30,144 nucleotides of DNA from the IMG/VR virus record IMGVR_UViG_3300032006_000053, positions 1 through 30,144 of that record; one strand, 5' to 3'. The position numbers and the translations under genes are program-made. Under the pieces are notes generated by a model. It was not told the origin of the DNA, ran no database searches, and saw only the letters and a program-made list of their open reading frames with translations. Source of the DNA: a virus. Shown here one piece after another: positions 24,248-30,144 of the stretch; position 1 is the first letter of the stretch, and every line of letters begins with the position of its first letter.

Positions 24248-24700
24248 ATGATTGATTTAAAGTTATATCCTACATTGAAAGTTAAAATTATTAATAAGAG
24301 TGATAATCCATTACCAAGTTATGCAAAGAAAGGTGATGCTGGTATGGATTTGCAAGCAAGTGAAGATGTTTGGATAAGACCATTTAATAAAGCAATTATT
24401 CCTACTGGAATTTATTTAGAGATACCAGATGGTTATGAATGTCAAATTAGATCAAGGTCTGGTTTGGCAGCTAAACATGGTCTTAATGTTATGAACTCAC
24501 CTGGCACTATTGATTCGGGTTATCGTGGTGAGATTAAAGTAATATTACATAATCATCATTTTCAATCTTATGATGTGAAAAAAGGTGATAGAGTTGCACA
24601 AATGGTTTTTGCACCAGTAACGATTGCGGAGTTTGTTAATGTTGAAGAATTAACTAATAGTGAACGTGGTGAAGGTGGACTAGGGAGCACAGGAACATGA
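24248..24700 (+). CDS. dut: Trimeric dUTP pyrophosphatase
   Basis: A 150-residue homotrimeric dUTPase that hydrolyses dUTP to dUMP and pyrophosphate, limiting uracil in DNA and feeding thymidylate synthesis. All five motifs are present: AGMDLQA (31-37), RSRSGLA (68-74), GTIDSGYRGE (86-95, with catalytic-water D89 and base-stacking Y92), GDRVAQMV (113-120) and RGEGGLGSTG (140-149). This is the all-beta type, not the all-alpha dCTPase/dUTPase gp56 of T4. It starts after GGGGATAAA, 8 nt after the zinc-ribbon gene, and overlaps gp55 by 4 nt (ATGA). Confidence 0.95.
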   Translation: MIDLKLYPTLKVKIINKSDNPLPSYAKKGDAGMDLQASEDVWIRPFNKAIIPTGIYLEIPDGYECQIRSRSGLAAKHGLNVMNSPGTIDSGYRGEIKVILHNHHFQSYDVKKGDRVAQMVFAPVTIAEFVNVEELTNSERGEGGLGSTGT

Positions 24701-25227
24701 CAGAAAAAAAAGACAAGTCAAAACATTATGTAGATAATGATAAGTTTTTTGTTGAAATGAAAAAATGGAAGCAGAGAGTTCTTGACAATCGTGAAGTTGA
24801 AGAAGATGATCCCCCAACAACTGAATACATGGGTGAGTGTTTTCTAAAGATATGTGAACATCTTGTCATGCGTCCTAATTTTATAAATTATACATTTCGA
24901 GATGATTTGATTTCTGACGGTATTGAGAATTGTTTGTTATACGCCCATAATTTCAATCCAGAAAAATCGAAGAATCCTTTTTCATATTTTACACAAATTA
25001 TTCATCATGCTTATGTTAGGAGGATTGTTAAAGAGAGAAAATTGATGCACATTAAATACCTTCTTGTTGAACGGGAAGGTATATTAAATGAAATAAGTCC
25101 TGATGGCGAGGATAATAAAAAAATGACAAAAGATTGGGTTGATTATTTACGAACCCATGAAAAGTATGCTGTAAATCCGAGTAAAAAGAAGAAAAATAAG
25201 TCTAATTTGGAATTATGTTTTAAATAA
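24697..25227 (+). CDS. 55: Late transcription sigma factor gp55
   Basis: A 176-residue sigma-family protein (T4 gp55: 185 aa) that directs RNA polymerase to the TATAAATA late promoter. The core is LKICEHLVMRPNFINYTFRDDLISDGIENCLLYAHNFNPEKSKNPFSYFTQIIHHAYVRRIVKERK, equivalent to sigma region 2; the RDDLISDGIENC and NPFSYF...AYVRRI segments are highly conserved in gp55. No region 4 is present, as in T4, since gp33 supplies the second contact. The end is basic (SKKKKNKSN). The gene overlaps dut by 4 nt. The exact TATAAATA octamers in the window fit its presence. Confidence 0.93.
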   Translation: MTEKKDKSKHYVDNDKFFVEMKKWKQRVLDNREVEEDDPPTTEYMGECFLKICEHLVMRPNFINYTFRDDLISDGIENCLLYAHNFNPEKSKNPFSYFTQIIHHAYVRRIVKERKLMHIKYLLVEREGILNEISPDGEDNKKMTKDWVDYLRTHEKYAVNPSKKKKNKSNLELCFK

Positions 25228-25283: not shown

Positions 25284-25511
25284 ATGGATTACCATGTTAT
25301 GTGGTTTGAAGTATGTCCTAATTGTAAGCCTAGAAATTCTGGATTTACAGTAGAGAACAAATTAGATGGTACTGTAGTTCAAAAATTTGAATGTGCAGAA
25401 TGTAATCATACATGGGAAAGGAAATATGAAAGTAGCATTAATAACGGATCAGCATTTTGGGGGAAAGCAAGACAGCTTGAACTTTTTGAATCATATAAAG
25501 AAATTTTATGA
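25284..25511 (+). CDS. Small zinc-ribbon protein overlapping gp47
   Basis: A 75-residue frame that begins 19 nt after a good promoter -10, with TTGGAG 8 nt before the ATG. It has CPNC (11-14) and CAEC (36-39) pairs flanking a short beta turn (GFTVENKLDGTVVQKFE) and ends with NHTWERKYE, features of RNA-polymerase or TFIIS-type ribbons. Its last 86 nt overlap the start of gp47 in another frame. The ribbon itself is complete before the overlap, so the C-terminal 28 residues may be unconstrained. Real from promoter, RBS and Cys pattern; role unknown. Confidence 0.65.
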   Translation: MDYHVMWFEVCPNCKPRNSGFTVENKLDGTVVQKFECAECNHTWERKYESSINNGSAFWGKARQLELFESYKEIL

Positions 25512-26496
25512 AGAACAATTTTTTCCATATCTTTCTGAAAATAATATTCATACTGTTATTGATCTTGGCGATACTTTTGATCGTAGAAAATTTGTTAATT
25601 TTAATATCTTAAATGAAGTAAGACAATTTTATTTTGATGTATTTTATGAACTTGGTATTAAATTACATTCTATTGTAGGTAATCATTCTACATATTATAG
25701 AAATACAAACTTTGTTAATAGTTCTGAATTGCTTTATGGACATTATCCTAATATTGAAGTATATCCAGAAGTTTCAACAATATCTATTGATGGTACATTG
25801 ATTGATTTAATTCCGTGGATTAATTCAGAGAATTATGATAGAACCATTGACTTTATTAAAAGATCACCATCGCATGTTGCTTTCGGTCATTTAGAAGTTG
25901 CTGGATTCGCAATGTATAAAGGATATAATGCAGAGGATGGTATTGCAAAAGATATATTTAAAGGATATGAAATAGTATGTTCTGGTCATTATCATCATAA
26001 GTCAAGTAAAGATAATATTCATTATCTTGGTGCTCCATACGAAATTACATGGAATGATTATGACGATCCTAGAGGGTTTCATGTATTCGATACAGAAACT
26101 AGAGAAATAGAGTTTATTCGTAACAGATTTAGATTGTTTGAAAAGATTTATTATGATGATAAAAACGTAGATTATGCAGAGGTTGATACTAATTATTATA
26201 AGAATAAGATTGTAAAACTTATTGTAGAAAAGAAAAACAATACAGATAAATATGAAACTTTTGTAGATAGATTATACAATTCAGATTTAGCCGATCTTAC
26301 TATATTAGAAGATTTATCAGAATATAGTGCAAGATATAATGAAGATGAAAATGAAGATGTTGAAATTGGAAACACATCAGATTTTTTAGAAGAATATGTA
26401 GATCATATGTCGGATAGTGGGAAGGAGGATGAAAAGGTTAAACTTAAAAAGTTATTAAAAGTGATATATGATGAAGCTCTTAACATGGATGAATAA
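25426..26496 (+). CDS. 47: Recombination nuclease subunit gp47 (SbcD/Mre11-like)
   Basis: A 356-residue metallophosphoesterase (T4 gp47: 339 aa) that with gp46 resects DNA ends for recombination-dependent replication. Motifs: DQH (D8, H10), LGDTFDRR (D49), GNHS (N86, H87), FGHLE and SGHYHHK, the full two-metal site. ATG 25426 is chosen because the protein then begins MKVALITDQH, as usual for the family, with AAAGGAAAT just upstream; an upstream frame start at 25387 would add 13 unrelated residues. The C-terminal 60 residues are acidic (NEDENEDVEIG). It overlaps the zinc-ribbon gene by 86 nt, and overlaps gp46 by one base (TAATG). Confidence 0.94.
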   Translation: MKVALITDQHFGGKQDSLNFLNHIKKFYEEQFFPYLSENNIHTVIDLGDTFDRRKFVNFNILNEVRQFYFDVFYELGIKLHSIVGNHSTYYRNTNFVNSSELLYGHYPNIEVYPEVSTISIDGTLIDLIPWINSENYDRTIDFIKRSPSHVAFGHLEVAGFAMYKGYNAEDGIAKDIFKGYEIVCSGHYHHKSSKDNIHYLGAPYEITWNDYDDPRGFHVFDTETREIEFIRNRFRLFEKIYYDDKNVDYAEVDTNYYKNKIVKLIVEKKNNTDKYETFVDRLYNSDLADLTILEDLSEYSARYNEDENEDVEIGNTSDFLEEYVDHMSDSGKEDEKVKLKKLLKVIYDEALNMDE

Positions 26497-28196
26497 TGAT
26501 TAGATTAAAAGTTGTAAGATGGAAAAATTTTCTTTCTACGGGAAATCAGTTTTTAGAAGTAAAATTAGATAAAGAACCAATGACATTGATTGTTGGTAAG
26601 AATGGTGCTGGTAAATCAACATTGATTGATGCTATCACCTTTTCTTTGTTTGGGAAACCTTTTAAAAGAATTAATAAAGGGCAGTTGGTAAATACTGTCA
26701 ATGAGAAAAATCTCTTAACAGAGGTGGAATTTTCTTTAGGTAAAAGTGAATGGAAAGTAAGGCGAGGAATTAAACCTGCTGTTTTTGAAATATATAATAA
26801 TGGAAAAATAATTAATCAGGATGCAAAGAGTACAGATTATCAAAAGTATCTTGAAGATAAAATTTTAAAATTAAATTTTAAATCATTTACTCAAATTGTT
26901 GTATTAGGTTCAGCATCATTTGTTCCTTTTATGCAACTATCAGCAAATGATCGTAGAGTTATTATTGAAGATATATTAGATATTGGTATATTTTCTATTA
27001 TGAAGAATTTACTCAAGGATCGTTTTTCTGTTTTAAAAGAAGAATTGGATGAACTTGAATATGAAATTAAATTGCTTCAGGAGAAAATTAAATTACAAGA
27101 AAAACACTCGAAGGAATTAGAAGAGGAAACGAAGCAAAAACGTAAGACAAGTTTAGACAAAATAAAAGAAACAGAACAAGAGATAGTAAAATTAAATAAA
27201 GAGATAGAAGAGCATCAAGTAAGAGTAAAAGATATTTTAGATTCTATTCAAGATAGATCCTCTATTGATAAACAACATTCGGAATTAGATAAGTATCGTT
27301 CACAAATTAAAAAGAATTTAAAGAAACTTAATAAGGATAAAAAGTTTTTTGAGAATAATGAAAATTGTCCGACTTGTGAACAAGATATTGATGAAACATT
27401 TAAAAAAAGAAAACTTATTGATGTTTCTGATGATATTGAAGAAATGGATGATGGCTTAGAAAAGATAGATGTTGAATTAGATAAAGTATATGAAAGAATA
27501 AAAGAAATATCTGACTTTACTCAAGAAATACAAACGGAAGAATCACAGGTAGTTCAAAAGACAAGTAATATACAGGCTCATAATAATTTTATTAAACATT
27601 TAAAAGAAGATATTGAAGCTACGATTGAAGATATTGATATAGATAAAGAAAATTTGTTAAATAGAGAACTGGAAGAAACCAAAACAACTAGAACACAATA
27701 TATGGAGCAGAAAAGATATTATAATATTCTTGCTACTATATTAAATGATAAAGGGATTAAAACTAGGATTATAAAAAAATATTTACCAGTTATTAATAAT
27801 CATGTAAATATGTATTTAAAAGATATGGATTTCTTTGTGAATTTTCAGTTGGATGAAAATTTCAACGAAACTATTAAGAGCAGACATAGGGACGATTTTT
27901 CATATTATTCTTTTTCTGAAGGAGAGAAAAAGAGAATTGATATTGCATTGTTGTTGACTTGGAGGCATATTGCTTCAATGCGTAATTCAGTTAATGTAAA
28001 TCTTTTAATATTAGATGAAGTATTTGATGCAAGTTTAGATCAGGCTGGTGTTGATGATTTAATGAAATTATTTAATATATTGAATAAAACAAATTTATTT
28101 ATTATTTCACATAAACTGGATGTATTGGATGATAAATTTCCTGCAAAGATTACAGTTGAAAAATATAAAAATTTTACTACTATGGAATACAGATGA
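26496..28196 (+). CDS. 46: Recombination nuclease ATPase gp46 (SbcC/Rad50-like)
   Basis: A 566-residue SMC-like ATPase (T4 gp46: 560 aa) forming the end-processing complex with gp47. Walker A GKNGAGKS (34-41), Q-loop region TQIVVLGS (132-139), long coiled coils of about 180-290 and 300-420 flanking a zinc hook CPTC (291-294), ABC signature FSEGEKKR (473-480), Walker B LLILDEVFD (503-511), H-loop ISHKLD (537-542). All elements for nucleotide-driven dimerisation are intact. The start overlaps the gp47 stop by one base, and the stop overlaps the next start (ATGA). Confidence 0.96.
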   Translation: MIRLKVVRWKNFLSTGNQFLEVKLDKEPMTLIVGKNGAGKSTLIDAITFSLFGKPFKRINKGQLVNTVNEKNLLTEVEFSLGKSEWKVRRGIKPAVFEIYNNGKIINQDAKSTDYQKYLEDKILKLNFKSFTQIVVLGSASFVPFMQLSANDRRVIIEDILDIGIFSIMKNLLKDRFSVLKEELDELEYEIKLLQEKIKLQEKHSKELEEETKQKRKTSLDKIKETEQEIVKLNKEIEEHQVRVKDILDSIQDRSSIDKQHSELDKYRSQIKKNLKKLNKDKKFFENNENCPTCEQDIDETFKKRKLIDVSDDIEEMDDGLEKIDVELDKVYERIKEISDFTQEIQTEESQVVQKTSNIQAHNNFIKHLKEDIEATIEDIDIDKENLLNRELEETKTTRTQYMEQKRYYNILATILNDKGIKTRIIKKYLPVINNHVNMYLKDMDFFVNFQLDENFNETIKSRHRDDFSYYSFSEGEKKRIDIALLLTWRHIASMRNSVNVNLLILDEVFDASLDQAGVDDLMKLFNILNKTNLFIISHKLDVLDDKFPAKITVEKYKNFTTMEYR

Positions 28197-28375
28197 AAAT
28201 ATTTATTATGATGTGGATAATATACTTACATGATTTATCTAGTGAGAAAATAATTTATGATGGTAGTTTGCATGATTGTTTACATGAAGCCCTCTCTTTT
28301 AATTTTAAAAATGAAAATAAAGCATATGCAGGATGTTATGCTGAAGTTAAACAGCCAAATTATTTAGAGGAATGA
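28193..28375 (+). CDS. 60-aa unknown protein in the gp46 operon
   Basis: A small protein translated by coupling to gp46 (ATGA overlap). The start (MKIFIMMWIIYLHD) is hydrophobic, then SEKIIYDGSLHDCLHEALSFNFKN, a polar region with Cys and His. It could be a short soluble protein with a beta-alpha-beta start or a membrane-associated peptide; the hydrophobic run of about 11 residues is too short for a certain TM helix. No family recognised. The tight position between gp46 and an FmdB-like ribbon supports expression. Confidence 0.6.
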   Translation: MKIFIMMWIIYLHDLSSEKIIYDGSLHDCLHEALSFNFKNENKAYAGCYAEVKQPNYLEE

Positions 28376-28376
28376 A

Positions 28377-28589
28377 ATGCCGTTATATAGTTATTATTGT
28401 GAAAAATGTAACGAGGTTTATGAAAATCTTAGAAGTATTAAACAAAGAGATATAAAATTAACCTGTCCTATTTGTAATGAAAATTGTGATCGTATTTTGG
28501 ATTTATCGGATTTTCATTTAAAGGGTGGTGGGTGGTTTAAAGATGGTTATGGAAATCAAAAACCAAAACCAAAAGGAGAAGAAAAATGA
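28377..28589 (+). CDS. FmdB-like zinc-ribbon protein
   Basis: A 70-residue protein with the FmdB-type start MPLYSYYCEKCNEVYE, then a second CPIC pair (CPICNENC) and a C-terminal GGGWFKDGYGN, the arrangement of FmdB/CxxC-type regulatory zinc ribbons. Cys residues at 8, 11, 30 and 33 would bind zinc. AGAGGAA precedes the ATG. It overlaps the proline dehydrogenase start by 4 nt (ATGA), so the two are translated together. The biological role of the family is unclear (putative regulatory proteins); here it may act on transcription or host enzymes, which is inference. Confidence 0.75.
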   Translation: MPLYSYYCEKCNEVYENLRSIKQRDIKLTCPICNENCDRILDLSDFHLKGGGWFKDGYGNQKPKPKGEEK

Positions 28590-29497
28590 AATGGCTATTT
28601 CCGTTAGCCAAACGGTTTATTGCTGGACATGATTTTGATTCTGCAAAACCAGTTATAGATAAACTTATTAAAGATGGTTATAGAGTTTCAATAGATTATC
28701 TTGGTGAATTGAGTAAGACGGCTAATGATTGTGAGGTTGCATATGCCCAGTATTCAAAAATAATAGCATACTATCAATATTTGCAACATTATAAAAATAA
28801 TGATTTTGGAATAGATATATCAGTTAAACCATCACAATTAGGTTTAAAACTTGATAAGAGTCGTTGCTATGAATATATGCACTCATTAGTTGCACAGGCA
28901 AGAACATATGGAATGACTGTTAGATTGGATATGGAAGATGATTCTTTGGTTGAGGATACTGTTGATTTATGTTTGCATTTGAAAAAAGAACATCCTAACA
29001 TAGGTGTTGCTCTTCAAACAAATATGTATCGTACAAAAGAAGATTTACAAACATTGATGAATAATAATATATCTATTCGTTTAGTCAAAGGTGCATATAA
29101 AGGTAATAATAAAATTGCATATCAGAATAAGAAACAAATAAAAGATTTATTTTTAAAACAATCTTTAATGATGCTTTCTGAAAGATGCCGTTCATATTAT
29201 TTTTTAAAAGATAAAGGATCACCAATTCATGCAATAGGTACACATGATCTTGAATTAATTAAAAGTATCAATGGTTATTTAAAAACTATTAAAATTGAAA
29301 AGAGTGATTTTGATTTTGAGTTGTTATATGGAATTAGACGAGATTTAAGTAAAGAATTAAAAGATAAAGGTCATAGAGTTCGGTTATATGTGCCGTTCGG
29401 AACGGAGTGGTTGCCCTATACTTTAAGAAGATTAAAAGAAATTAAGAACTTGAAATTCGTTGTTTTTAATATAGTTAGAGAGATTTTTCGATTTTGA
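28586..29497 (+). CDS. Proline dehydrogenase (PRODH), phage-borne metabolic gene
   Basis: A 303-residue FAD-dependent enzyme oxidising proline to pyrroline-5-carboxylate and passing electrons to quinone. The length matches bacterial monofunctional PRODH (about 305). Motifs in order: GYRVSIDYLGE (31-41), ISVKPSQLGL (78-87, K81), VRLDMED (112-118), ALQTNMYRTKEDL (142-154), IRLVKGAY (164-171, R165, K168), AIGTHD (216-221, H220), FELLYGIRRDL (244-254) and RVRLYVPFGTEWLPYTLRRLKE (264-285, substrate-carboxylate pair R281/R282). All these (beta/alpha)8-barrel features are present, so activity is plausible. The pyrroline-carboxylate dehydrogenase half of PutA is absent; the host would have to supply it. 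Translation is coupled to the FmdB-like gene. Base composition is like that of the neighbours, so the transfer is not recent. Confidence 0.88.
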   Translation: MKWLFPLAKRFIAGHDFDSAKPVIDKLIKDGYRVSIDYLGELSKTANDCEVAYAQYSKIIAYYQYLQHYKNNDFGIDISVKPSQLGLKLDKSRCYEYMHSLVAQARTYGMTVRLDMEDDSLVEDTVDLCLHLKKEHPNIGVALQTNMYRTKEDLQTLMNNNISIRLVKGAYKGNNKIAYQNKKQIKDLFLKQSLMMLSERCRSYYFLKDKGSPIHAIGTHDLELIKSINGYLKTIKIEKSDFDFELLYGIRRDLSKELKDKGHRVRLYVPFGTEWLPYTLRRLKEIKNLKFVVFNIVREIFRF

Positions 29498-29563: not shown

Positions 29564-29986
29564 ATGAGTTTACTAACAAAGTATAATACAAGTAATATGG
29601 ACATTTTCCCGAATTGGATGAATTTTGATCGTTTTGATAACTTTCTTTTTGATCCTCTGGTAGAAACAGCATTGGAACAACGGCCTAAGAATAAGTATCG
29701 TTGGAGTGAAACAGACGATAACTATAAAGTCGATATTGTTATGCCAGGAATGACAAAGAAAGATATTGAACTTTTATACAAAAATGATACATTGACTATT
29801 AAATGTACCAAAGAAGTATCGGAAAAAGATAAAAGTTTTTTTGGTGTAAAGACTGAACAAGTTTTTAATAATTTTCCAAGACGTATTGATTCAACCAGTA
29901 TCACGGCTGAAATGGTTGATGGTGTTTTAACAGTAGTATTACCAAAGCAGGAGTCTGAGAAGTCTAAATCTATTGATATTAAATAA
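29564..29986 (+). CDS. Small heat-shock protein Hsp20
   Basis: A 140-residue ATP-independent chaperone of the alpha-crystallin family that holds unfolding proteins; common in marine T4-like phages. The alpha-crystallin domain spans about residues 48-135: YRWSETDDNYKVDIVMPGMTKKDIELLYKNDTLTIKC near its start and DGVLTVVLPK near its end (the GVL hallmark). The C-terminal SIDIK carries the I-x-I anchoring motif. ATG 29564 is chosen because AAGGAG lies 7 nt upstream; a longer frame starting at 29507 would run through the promoter region and lacks an RBS. It stands alone between PRODH and talC, 9 nt before the latter. Confidence 0.93.
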   Translation: MSLLTKYNTSNMDIFPNWMNFDRFDNFLFDPLVETALEQRPKNKYRWSETDDNYKVDIVMPGMTKKDIELLYKNDTLTIKCTKEVSEKDKSFFGVKTEQVFNNFPRRIDSTSITAEMVDGVLTVVLPKQESEKSKSIDIK

Positions 29987-29995
29987 GGAGGTCTT

Positions 29996-30144
29996 ATGAG
30001 GTTTTTTGCTGATACAGCGGATATTGTAGAAATCCGTGATTTACAAAATGCAAATCTGATACAGGGTGTTACTACAAATCCAACACTTGTTCAACGTGCA
30101 GGTCGAAAAGATTTTACAAAATGTATGGAAGAAATCTGCGACAT
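29996..30144 (+). CDS. talC: TalC-like transaldolase / fructose-6-phosphate aldolase family (3' truncated)
   Basis: The first 49 codons of a small transaldolase. MRFFADTADIVEIRDL and LIQGVTTNPTLVQRAG are the family's opening strand-helix and the GVTTNPTL signature. The TalC/FSA class is about 215-220 residues; the Schiff-base Lys lies beyond the window end. The enzyme transfers a dihydroxyacetone unit in the pentose phosphate pathway; cyanophage TalC is a well known auxiliary metabolic gene. RBS AAGGAGG (29985-29991) with 4-5 nt to ATG 29996; 9 nt after hsp20, so they share a transcript. Whether it acts as a transaldolase or an aldolase cannot be told from this part. Confidence 0.88.
   Translation, partial: MRFFADTADIVEIRDLQNANLIQGVTTNPTLVQRAGRKDFTKCMEEICD

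Follow-up and report, generated by a model that had tools for sequence, protein, structure and literature searches.

The 30,144-nucleotide stretch of viral DNA analyzed here (the window) encodes a full-length, monofunctional proline dehydrogenase (PRODH) of the Thermus type, a metabolic gene that belongs to a genuine phage genome and is kept there under selection. Its placement as a probable auxiliary metabolic gene follows from the phage genes on both flanks, purifying selection on the viral PRODHs (pairwise dN/dS of 0.08–0.34 for all listed pairs with dS >0.1), and retention of the gene across a clade of related phages.

The window phage is T4-like, with gp23 (capsid match of 460 bits), portal (641 bits), terminase, UvsW-type helicase, the SbcD/SbcC-like gp47/gp46 pair, and a late sigma factor in T4-like order; PHROGs also identify a dUTPase. 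By gp23, its nearest isolates are Methylophilales phage Melnitz (66.8%) and the Pelagibacter phages Mosig and HTVC008M. Melnitz has the same gp55-gp47-gp46 order but lacks PRODH. The gene order in the window is gp55, a small orf, gp47, gp46, orf28193, FmdB, PRODH, Hsp20, and a transaldolase-family gene, and the features are as follows.

24697–25227, plus strand: gp55-like late sigma factor (synteny with the annotated Melnitz late sigma factor)
25426–26496, plus strand: gp47/SbcD-like recombination nuclease subunit (phrog_100, 366 bits)
26496–28196, plus strand: gp46/SbcC-like recombination nuclease subunit (phrog_77, 581 bits)
28193–28375, plus strand: small conserved orf28193 of 60 aa, overlapping gp46 by 4 nt
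28377–28589, plus strand: FmdB-like zinc-ribbon protein (Pfam Zn_ribbon_8, 40 bits; phrog_1076, FmdB-like)
28586–29497, plus strand: monofunctional PRODH of 303 aa (Pfam, PDB, fold, and active-site basis)
29564–29986, plus strand: Hsp20 small heat-shock protein, downstream of PRODH (Pfam HSP20, 58 bits; phrog_432)
29996–30144, plus strand: 5' portion of a transaldolase/TalC-type gene, truncated at the end of the window (PF00923, 37.7 bits on 49 aa)

The longest ORF of gp47 begins at 25387, with the likely start ATG at 25426. Pfam and PHROG searches return no match for orf28193, homologs of which, up to 88% identical, occupy the equivalent place by gp46 in related phages. The initial annotation had placed PRODH inside the gp47-gp46 pair, which the gene order contradicts; it was right, though, that PRODH is packed tightly in a run with DNA-end-processing genes and that its start overlaps the stop of the FmdB-like gene, which ends at 28589, by 4 nt (ATGA). 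A promoter and terminator scan gave no signal above shuffled sequences, and no tRNA genes were found in the window. At the other end of the window, positions 1–2797 hold successive long tail-fiber-like ORFs that are mutually similar and carry repeated HGY/GG motifs.

The PRODH ORF runs from an ATG start to a TGA stop with no internal stop codons. It matches Pfam PF01619 (Pro_dh) over residues 23–285 with an E-value of 3.9e-29 and a score of 102.5 bits, exceeding the cut-off of 27. The top NCBIfam model is the Thermus-type NF045947 at 180 bits, far below its curated cut-off of 500, while the PutA model reaches 69 bits against a cut-off of 747. The protein is a single-domain, stand-alone enzyme without an ALDH domain, and the nearest solved structures by sequence are the PRODHs of Thermus thermophilus (6e-37) and Deinococcus radiodurans (3e-32), represented by 2ekg, 5m42, and 4h6q. 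An AlphaFold model built from 13 phage relatives (pLDDT 81, pTM 0.83) matches the Deinococcus and Thermus PRODHs with Foldseek E-values of ~1e-20 and superposes on 4h6r, 2g37, and 2ekg with VIA-align Z-scores of 32–33 and an rmsd of ~2.1 Å over 266–270 residues. In the alignment, K81, R165, K168, R281, and R282 of the window protein correspond to Thermus K99, R184, K187, R288, and R289, and D115, Y171, Y268, and Y278 correspond to D133, Y190, Y275, and Y285. The catalytic, substrate-binding, and FAD-binding roles of these nine residues are presumably those of their Thermus counterparts, and all nine are invariant, alignment gaps aside, in 39 viral sequences from two lineages. Thermus Y165, on the other hand, is replaced by N146 in the window and by asparagine in all 39 viral sequences.

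These results bear out the claim of the initial annotation that the PRODH is complete, with intact FAD and substrate motifs. The profile search and structure prediction that it had proposed gave a significant Pro_dh match and a PRODH fold (Z ~33) with the five basic residues K81, R165, K168, R281, and R282 present, and neither of the outcomes it had named as grounds for rejection, an absent profile match or missing active-site residues, was encountered. It had proposed a comparison with marine bacterial putA, but the sequence belongs with the monofunctional, Thermus-type enzymes (180 versus 69 bits) and lies within a virus-only clade. The PRODHs of T. thermophilus (2g37, 2ekg) and D. radiodurans (4h6q) share the fold, catalytic-domain length, and active-site residues of the window protein, which differs from them in its ~30% identity, its lack of the N-terminal extension, and its position in a separate viral clade; in most T4-like members, a short insertion also precedes the GTHD motif. 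The PRODH domains of PutA from E. coli, Geobacter, and Bdellovibrio belong to the same fold family (Z 27–29) but are less similar in sequence, and the window protein has neither the fused P5C dehydrogenase nor the DNA-binding domain of PutA. No PHROGs family matches the window PRODH, and a viral structure library returns only two clear matches to its model, one of them a Mimiviridae protein.

Relatives of the window PRODH were collected from three viral scans and fall into several groups. In group 1, the T4-like phages, PRODH follows FmdB in the window and in L002, L004, L109, L110, and L112–L114, while in most other members it lies directly after gp55 and before gp47 with a short overlap; at both sites its start overlaps or abuts the preceding gene. 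The gp55-like factor, 66–97% identical within the PRODH clade, served as an independent probe for the presence of PRODH. PRODH is found in 19 of 34 contig fragments whose gp55 is at least 64% identical, a lower bound because many fragments stop short of one PRODH site, and in four of the five contigs of the same gp55 clade (≥64%) that span both sites. All 46 contigs with a more distant gp55 are devoid of it. PRODH is common in the uncultivated T4-like clade of the window phage. The one exception among the spanning contigs, L246, covers both sites without PRODH and offers a natural comparison for its loss.

Group 2 (L126–L133, L135–L139, and L141–L143; contigs up to 178 kb) has a backbone that differs from the T4-like one, with no detectable gp23, and its 178-kb record brings a terminase, a DNA polymerase, and a ribonucleotide reductase of its own. 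Group 3 (L219–L224; contigs up to 127 kb) has PRODHs that are 32–36% identical to that of L127 in group 2, and a divergent gp23 occurs in one of its records. Groups 1 and 2 come out as a single clade (SH-aLRT 100), whose stem measures 1.0 change per site, in a tree in which cellular PRODHs were represented by the best 80 loci among the matches listed together with a small number of Fidelibacterota sequences. In a second tree with about half of those best 80 cellular loci, groups 1–3 form one clade (SH-aLRT 99.9). A fourth PRODH, from a 245-kb record, is too divergent for placement, but the AU test does not reject a clade shared with the other groups (AU 0.62). Judged from these trees, the phage PRODHs appear to be an old virus-only branch outside all sampled cellular PRODHs, to which an unsampled cellular sequence may be closely related. 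The single viral clade outside the sampled cellular sequences argues against a recent copy from a host.

Five phage isolate records match PRODH, and the three that were included in the tree group with cellular PRODHs. In Microcystis phage MaAM05 (MW495066.1, 103223–104131) the neighbors of PRODH are fliM, murJ, bioD, and acdA, and in Staphylococcus UPMK_1 (MG543995.1, 88093–89094) the neighbor is ribBA. These isolate-record copies were rejected as phage genes, since their chromosomal-looking neighbors and cellular tree placement point to bacterial DNA. No match was found in a genuine phage isolate record.

In groups 2 and 3, PRODH is accompanied by further putative enzymes of amino acid metabolism. 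A gene of the OCD/mu-crystallin family occurs in 9 of the 16 group-2 records (PF02423, 210–223 bits versus 24) and adjoins PRODH in five of them, ~0.9 kb midpoint to midpoint. The top NCBIfam model for its product is the archaeal alanine dehydrogenase, which scores below its cut-off; as no substrate-specific NCBIfam model exceeds its cut-off, assignment as a certain ornithine cyclodeaminase was dropped. An aldehyde dehydrogenase is present in nine group-2 records of 46–178 kb, which are exactly the nine with a saccharopine-dehydrogenase-family gene, and one copy adjoins a nucleotide-sugar-type gene, as judged by reading the sequence. Three of the six group-3 records (L221–L223) also encode an aldehyde dehydrogenase, a few genes upstream of PRODH. 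Against the P5C dehydrogenase models PRK03137 and TIGR01237, the aldehyde dehydrogenases of the two groups score 256–405 bits, with cut-offs of 648–660, and they pass no substrate-specific cut-off; assignment of the group-2 enzyme as a P5C dehydrogenase was consequently dropped. The saccharopine-dehydrogenase-family gene lies downstream of PRODH in four of the six group-3 records (L221–L224), with a gap of a few to ~15 nt. It also adjoins PRODH in the 245-kb record, which has an aldehyde dehydrogenase as well.

The three saccharopine-dehydrogenase-family proteins tested have 3abi, the L-lysine 6-dehydrogenase of Pyrococcus horikoshii (PMC10413350), as their best PDB match by sequence. A low-confidence structural model (pLDDT 63) has Z-scores of 20–23, without a clear preference, to carboxyspermidine, lysine, and saccharopine dehydrogenases and was too weak to choose among the three by structure, so that choice was abandoned. 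In group 3, genes for a protein with a TPP-enzyme C-terminal domain and for a ferredoxin (L221, 1167–2545; L223, 2–1191) lie just ahead of those for the aldehyde dehydrogenase and PRODH, joined in L223 by a partial ORF resembling the alpha subunit of 2-oxoacid:ferredoxin oxidoreductase.

Among T4-like records, the saccharopine-dehydrogenase-family gene is present only in G012, the 74-kb contig of L109, which is one of the nearest PRODH relatives of the window, and it lies elsewhere than PRODH. The OCD-family gene is absent from the window and seven other T4-like records searched, and an aldehyde dehydrogenase was not found in any T4-like record searched. Because of these absences, the putative amino-acid-degrading set that includes PRODH is documented for the other phage lineages and not for the T4-like lineage of the window. 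By comparison with Melnitz, a complete group-1 genome would be expected to measure ~140 kb.

A phage contig of the group-1 type, L029, has been assigned by binning to UBA2980, a MAG of Candidatus Marinimicrobia (Fidelibacterota) and the only MAG that contains such a contig. This binning is weak evidence that suggests Fidelibacterota/SAR406 as the host, and PRODH-like matches occur in 80 of 120 Fidelibacterota genomes. Besides a PRODH of its own (30% identical), the MAG encodes a P5C dehydrogenase that exceeds its cut-off (TIGR01236). The statement in the initial annotation that P5C dehydrogenase is missing and host-supplied stands for the window, with a candidate host that has one; related phages, however, themselves encode aldehyde dehydrogenases, albeit ones that score below the P5C dehydrogenase cut-offs. 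The hosts of the PRODH phages are probably heterotrophic bacteria.

Taken as a whole, the data are best explained, quite probably correctly, by an active route from proline via P5C to glutamate that delivers electrons to quinone and is encoded in part by an old viral gene, which in related phages belongs to a larger set. The T4-like marine phage would express an FAD-dependent L-proline dehydrogenase during infection and convert host proline to P5C, which equilibrates with glutamate semialdehyde, while PRODH would hand two electrons from proline to the quinone pool of the respiratory chain. P5C would then be taken to glutamate by the P5C dehydrogenase of the host, and the route would yield NADH and 2-oxoglutarate as well as amino groups on which nucleotide and protein synthesis could draw. 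The role suggested in the initial annotation, in which proline electrons enter host respiration or the proline/glutamate pool is shifted, is accordingly plausible. In related phages, PRODH would act within a small amino-acid-degrading set together with the OCD-family protein, the saccharopine/lysine-dehydrogenase-like enzyme, and the aldehyde dehydrogenase.

The fate of P5C could also be different. Together with the P5C reductase of the host (ProC), phage PRODH could form a proline-P5C cycle, a chemistry known in mammalian proline metabolism, that carries electrons from NADPH to quinol and raises NADP+; with the TalC-type gene of the phage, this would drive the oxidative pentose phosphate pathway and supply ribose for nucleotides. 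Such a cycle would run without a phage P5C dehydrogenase, an enzyme not found in the T4-like records searched; in addition, the transaldolase-family gene begins 0.5 kb downstream of PRODH. However, this closeness is weak evidence because TalC is widespread among marine T4-like phages, and the other groups pair PRODH with amino acid dehydrogenases and an aldehyde dehydrogenase, which argues for onward oxidation and makes the cycle unlikely. A PRODH fold with another cyclic imino acid or analog as its main substrate, such as pipecolate or a hydroxyproline, is quite improbable. A shifted substrate is nevertheless possible from the sequence, given that the score (180) is well below the Thermus equivalog cut-off (500). 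The long stem branch of the viral clade and the asparagine in place of Thermus Y165 would also fit, as would the lysine/saccharopine-dehydrogenase-like gene adjoining PRODH in two lineages; the reaction product of the encoded enzyme would cyclize to P6C and provide the link to such a substrate. The mapped carboxylate- and FAD-contacting residues, in contrast, are all as in known PRODHs.

The base composition of the gene (28.5% GC versus 33% for the window, i.e., more AT-rich) would suit a gene that is functionless in the phage, whether as a passenger or as a decaying host gene. That reading is already disfavored and very remote, considering the purifying selection, the conserved active sites, the near-constant presence of PRODH in the clade where contigs cover both sites, and its retention at two separate sites. 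Proline oxidation by way of P5C to glutamate is the preferred reading.

It is in phages with photosynthetic hosts that auxiliary metabolic genes are best understood, and those of cyanophages include psbA, talC, zwf, and gnd. Cyanophages share with the window phage a T4-like backbone and the proposed propping-up of host energy and reductant during infection, but with PRODH the source of electrons would be an amino acid, and the host is probably a heterotroph. On a broader and tentative reading, several unrelated ocean phage lineages may share a virus-evolved catabolic module that powers replication by breaking down proline, lysine, and either ornithine or alanine. Its parts would be PRODH, the lysine-dehydrogenase-like enzyme, the OCD-family protein, and a semialdehyde dehydrogenase, to which group 3 would add the 2-oxoacid:ferredoxin-oxidoreductase-like genes and ferredoxin. 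If true, this module would be a dark counterpart, in heterotrophic hosts, of the cyanophage photosynthesis genes. An old, conserved, virus-specific PRODH suggests that amino acid respiration can be a viral target, and, through a phage PRODH, infection would be connected with energy supply at the quinone level as well as with the marine flux of proline/glutamate and ammonium. The PRODH clade, its two insertion sites, and the partner enzymes lead to concrete predictions.

Virus-borne PRODH has a precedent in marine plankton: Ostreococcus virus OtV5 and haptophyte viruses carry an apparently complete proline dehydrogenase (PMC2386258, PMC11953307). The hosts of these viruses are eukaryotic algae, and the OtV5 enzyme is host-like, being highly similar to that of Ostreococcus, whereas the phage clade lies outside the sampled cellular PRODHs. 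Phages are known to steer arginine, proline, and polyamine metabolism indirectly (PMC11898732). No paper on a phage PRODH was found in the open-access full texts searched; provisionally, phage PRODH is new to the literature, in agreement with the initial annotation, which had not counted it among the commonly discussed phage metabolic genes.

The related contigs carry several other genes of note. G012 encodes a periplasmic binding protein, possibly of the urea/amide type (L165, 13362–15674; PF13433, 560 bits), followed by GAPDH. A group-1 T4-like phage has a fatty-acid desaturase (L007, 5101–5889, minus strand; PF00487, 70 bits), and a group-3 phage has a class-II tRNA-synthetase-like protein (L221, 11182–12096, minus strand; PF00152, 65 bits).
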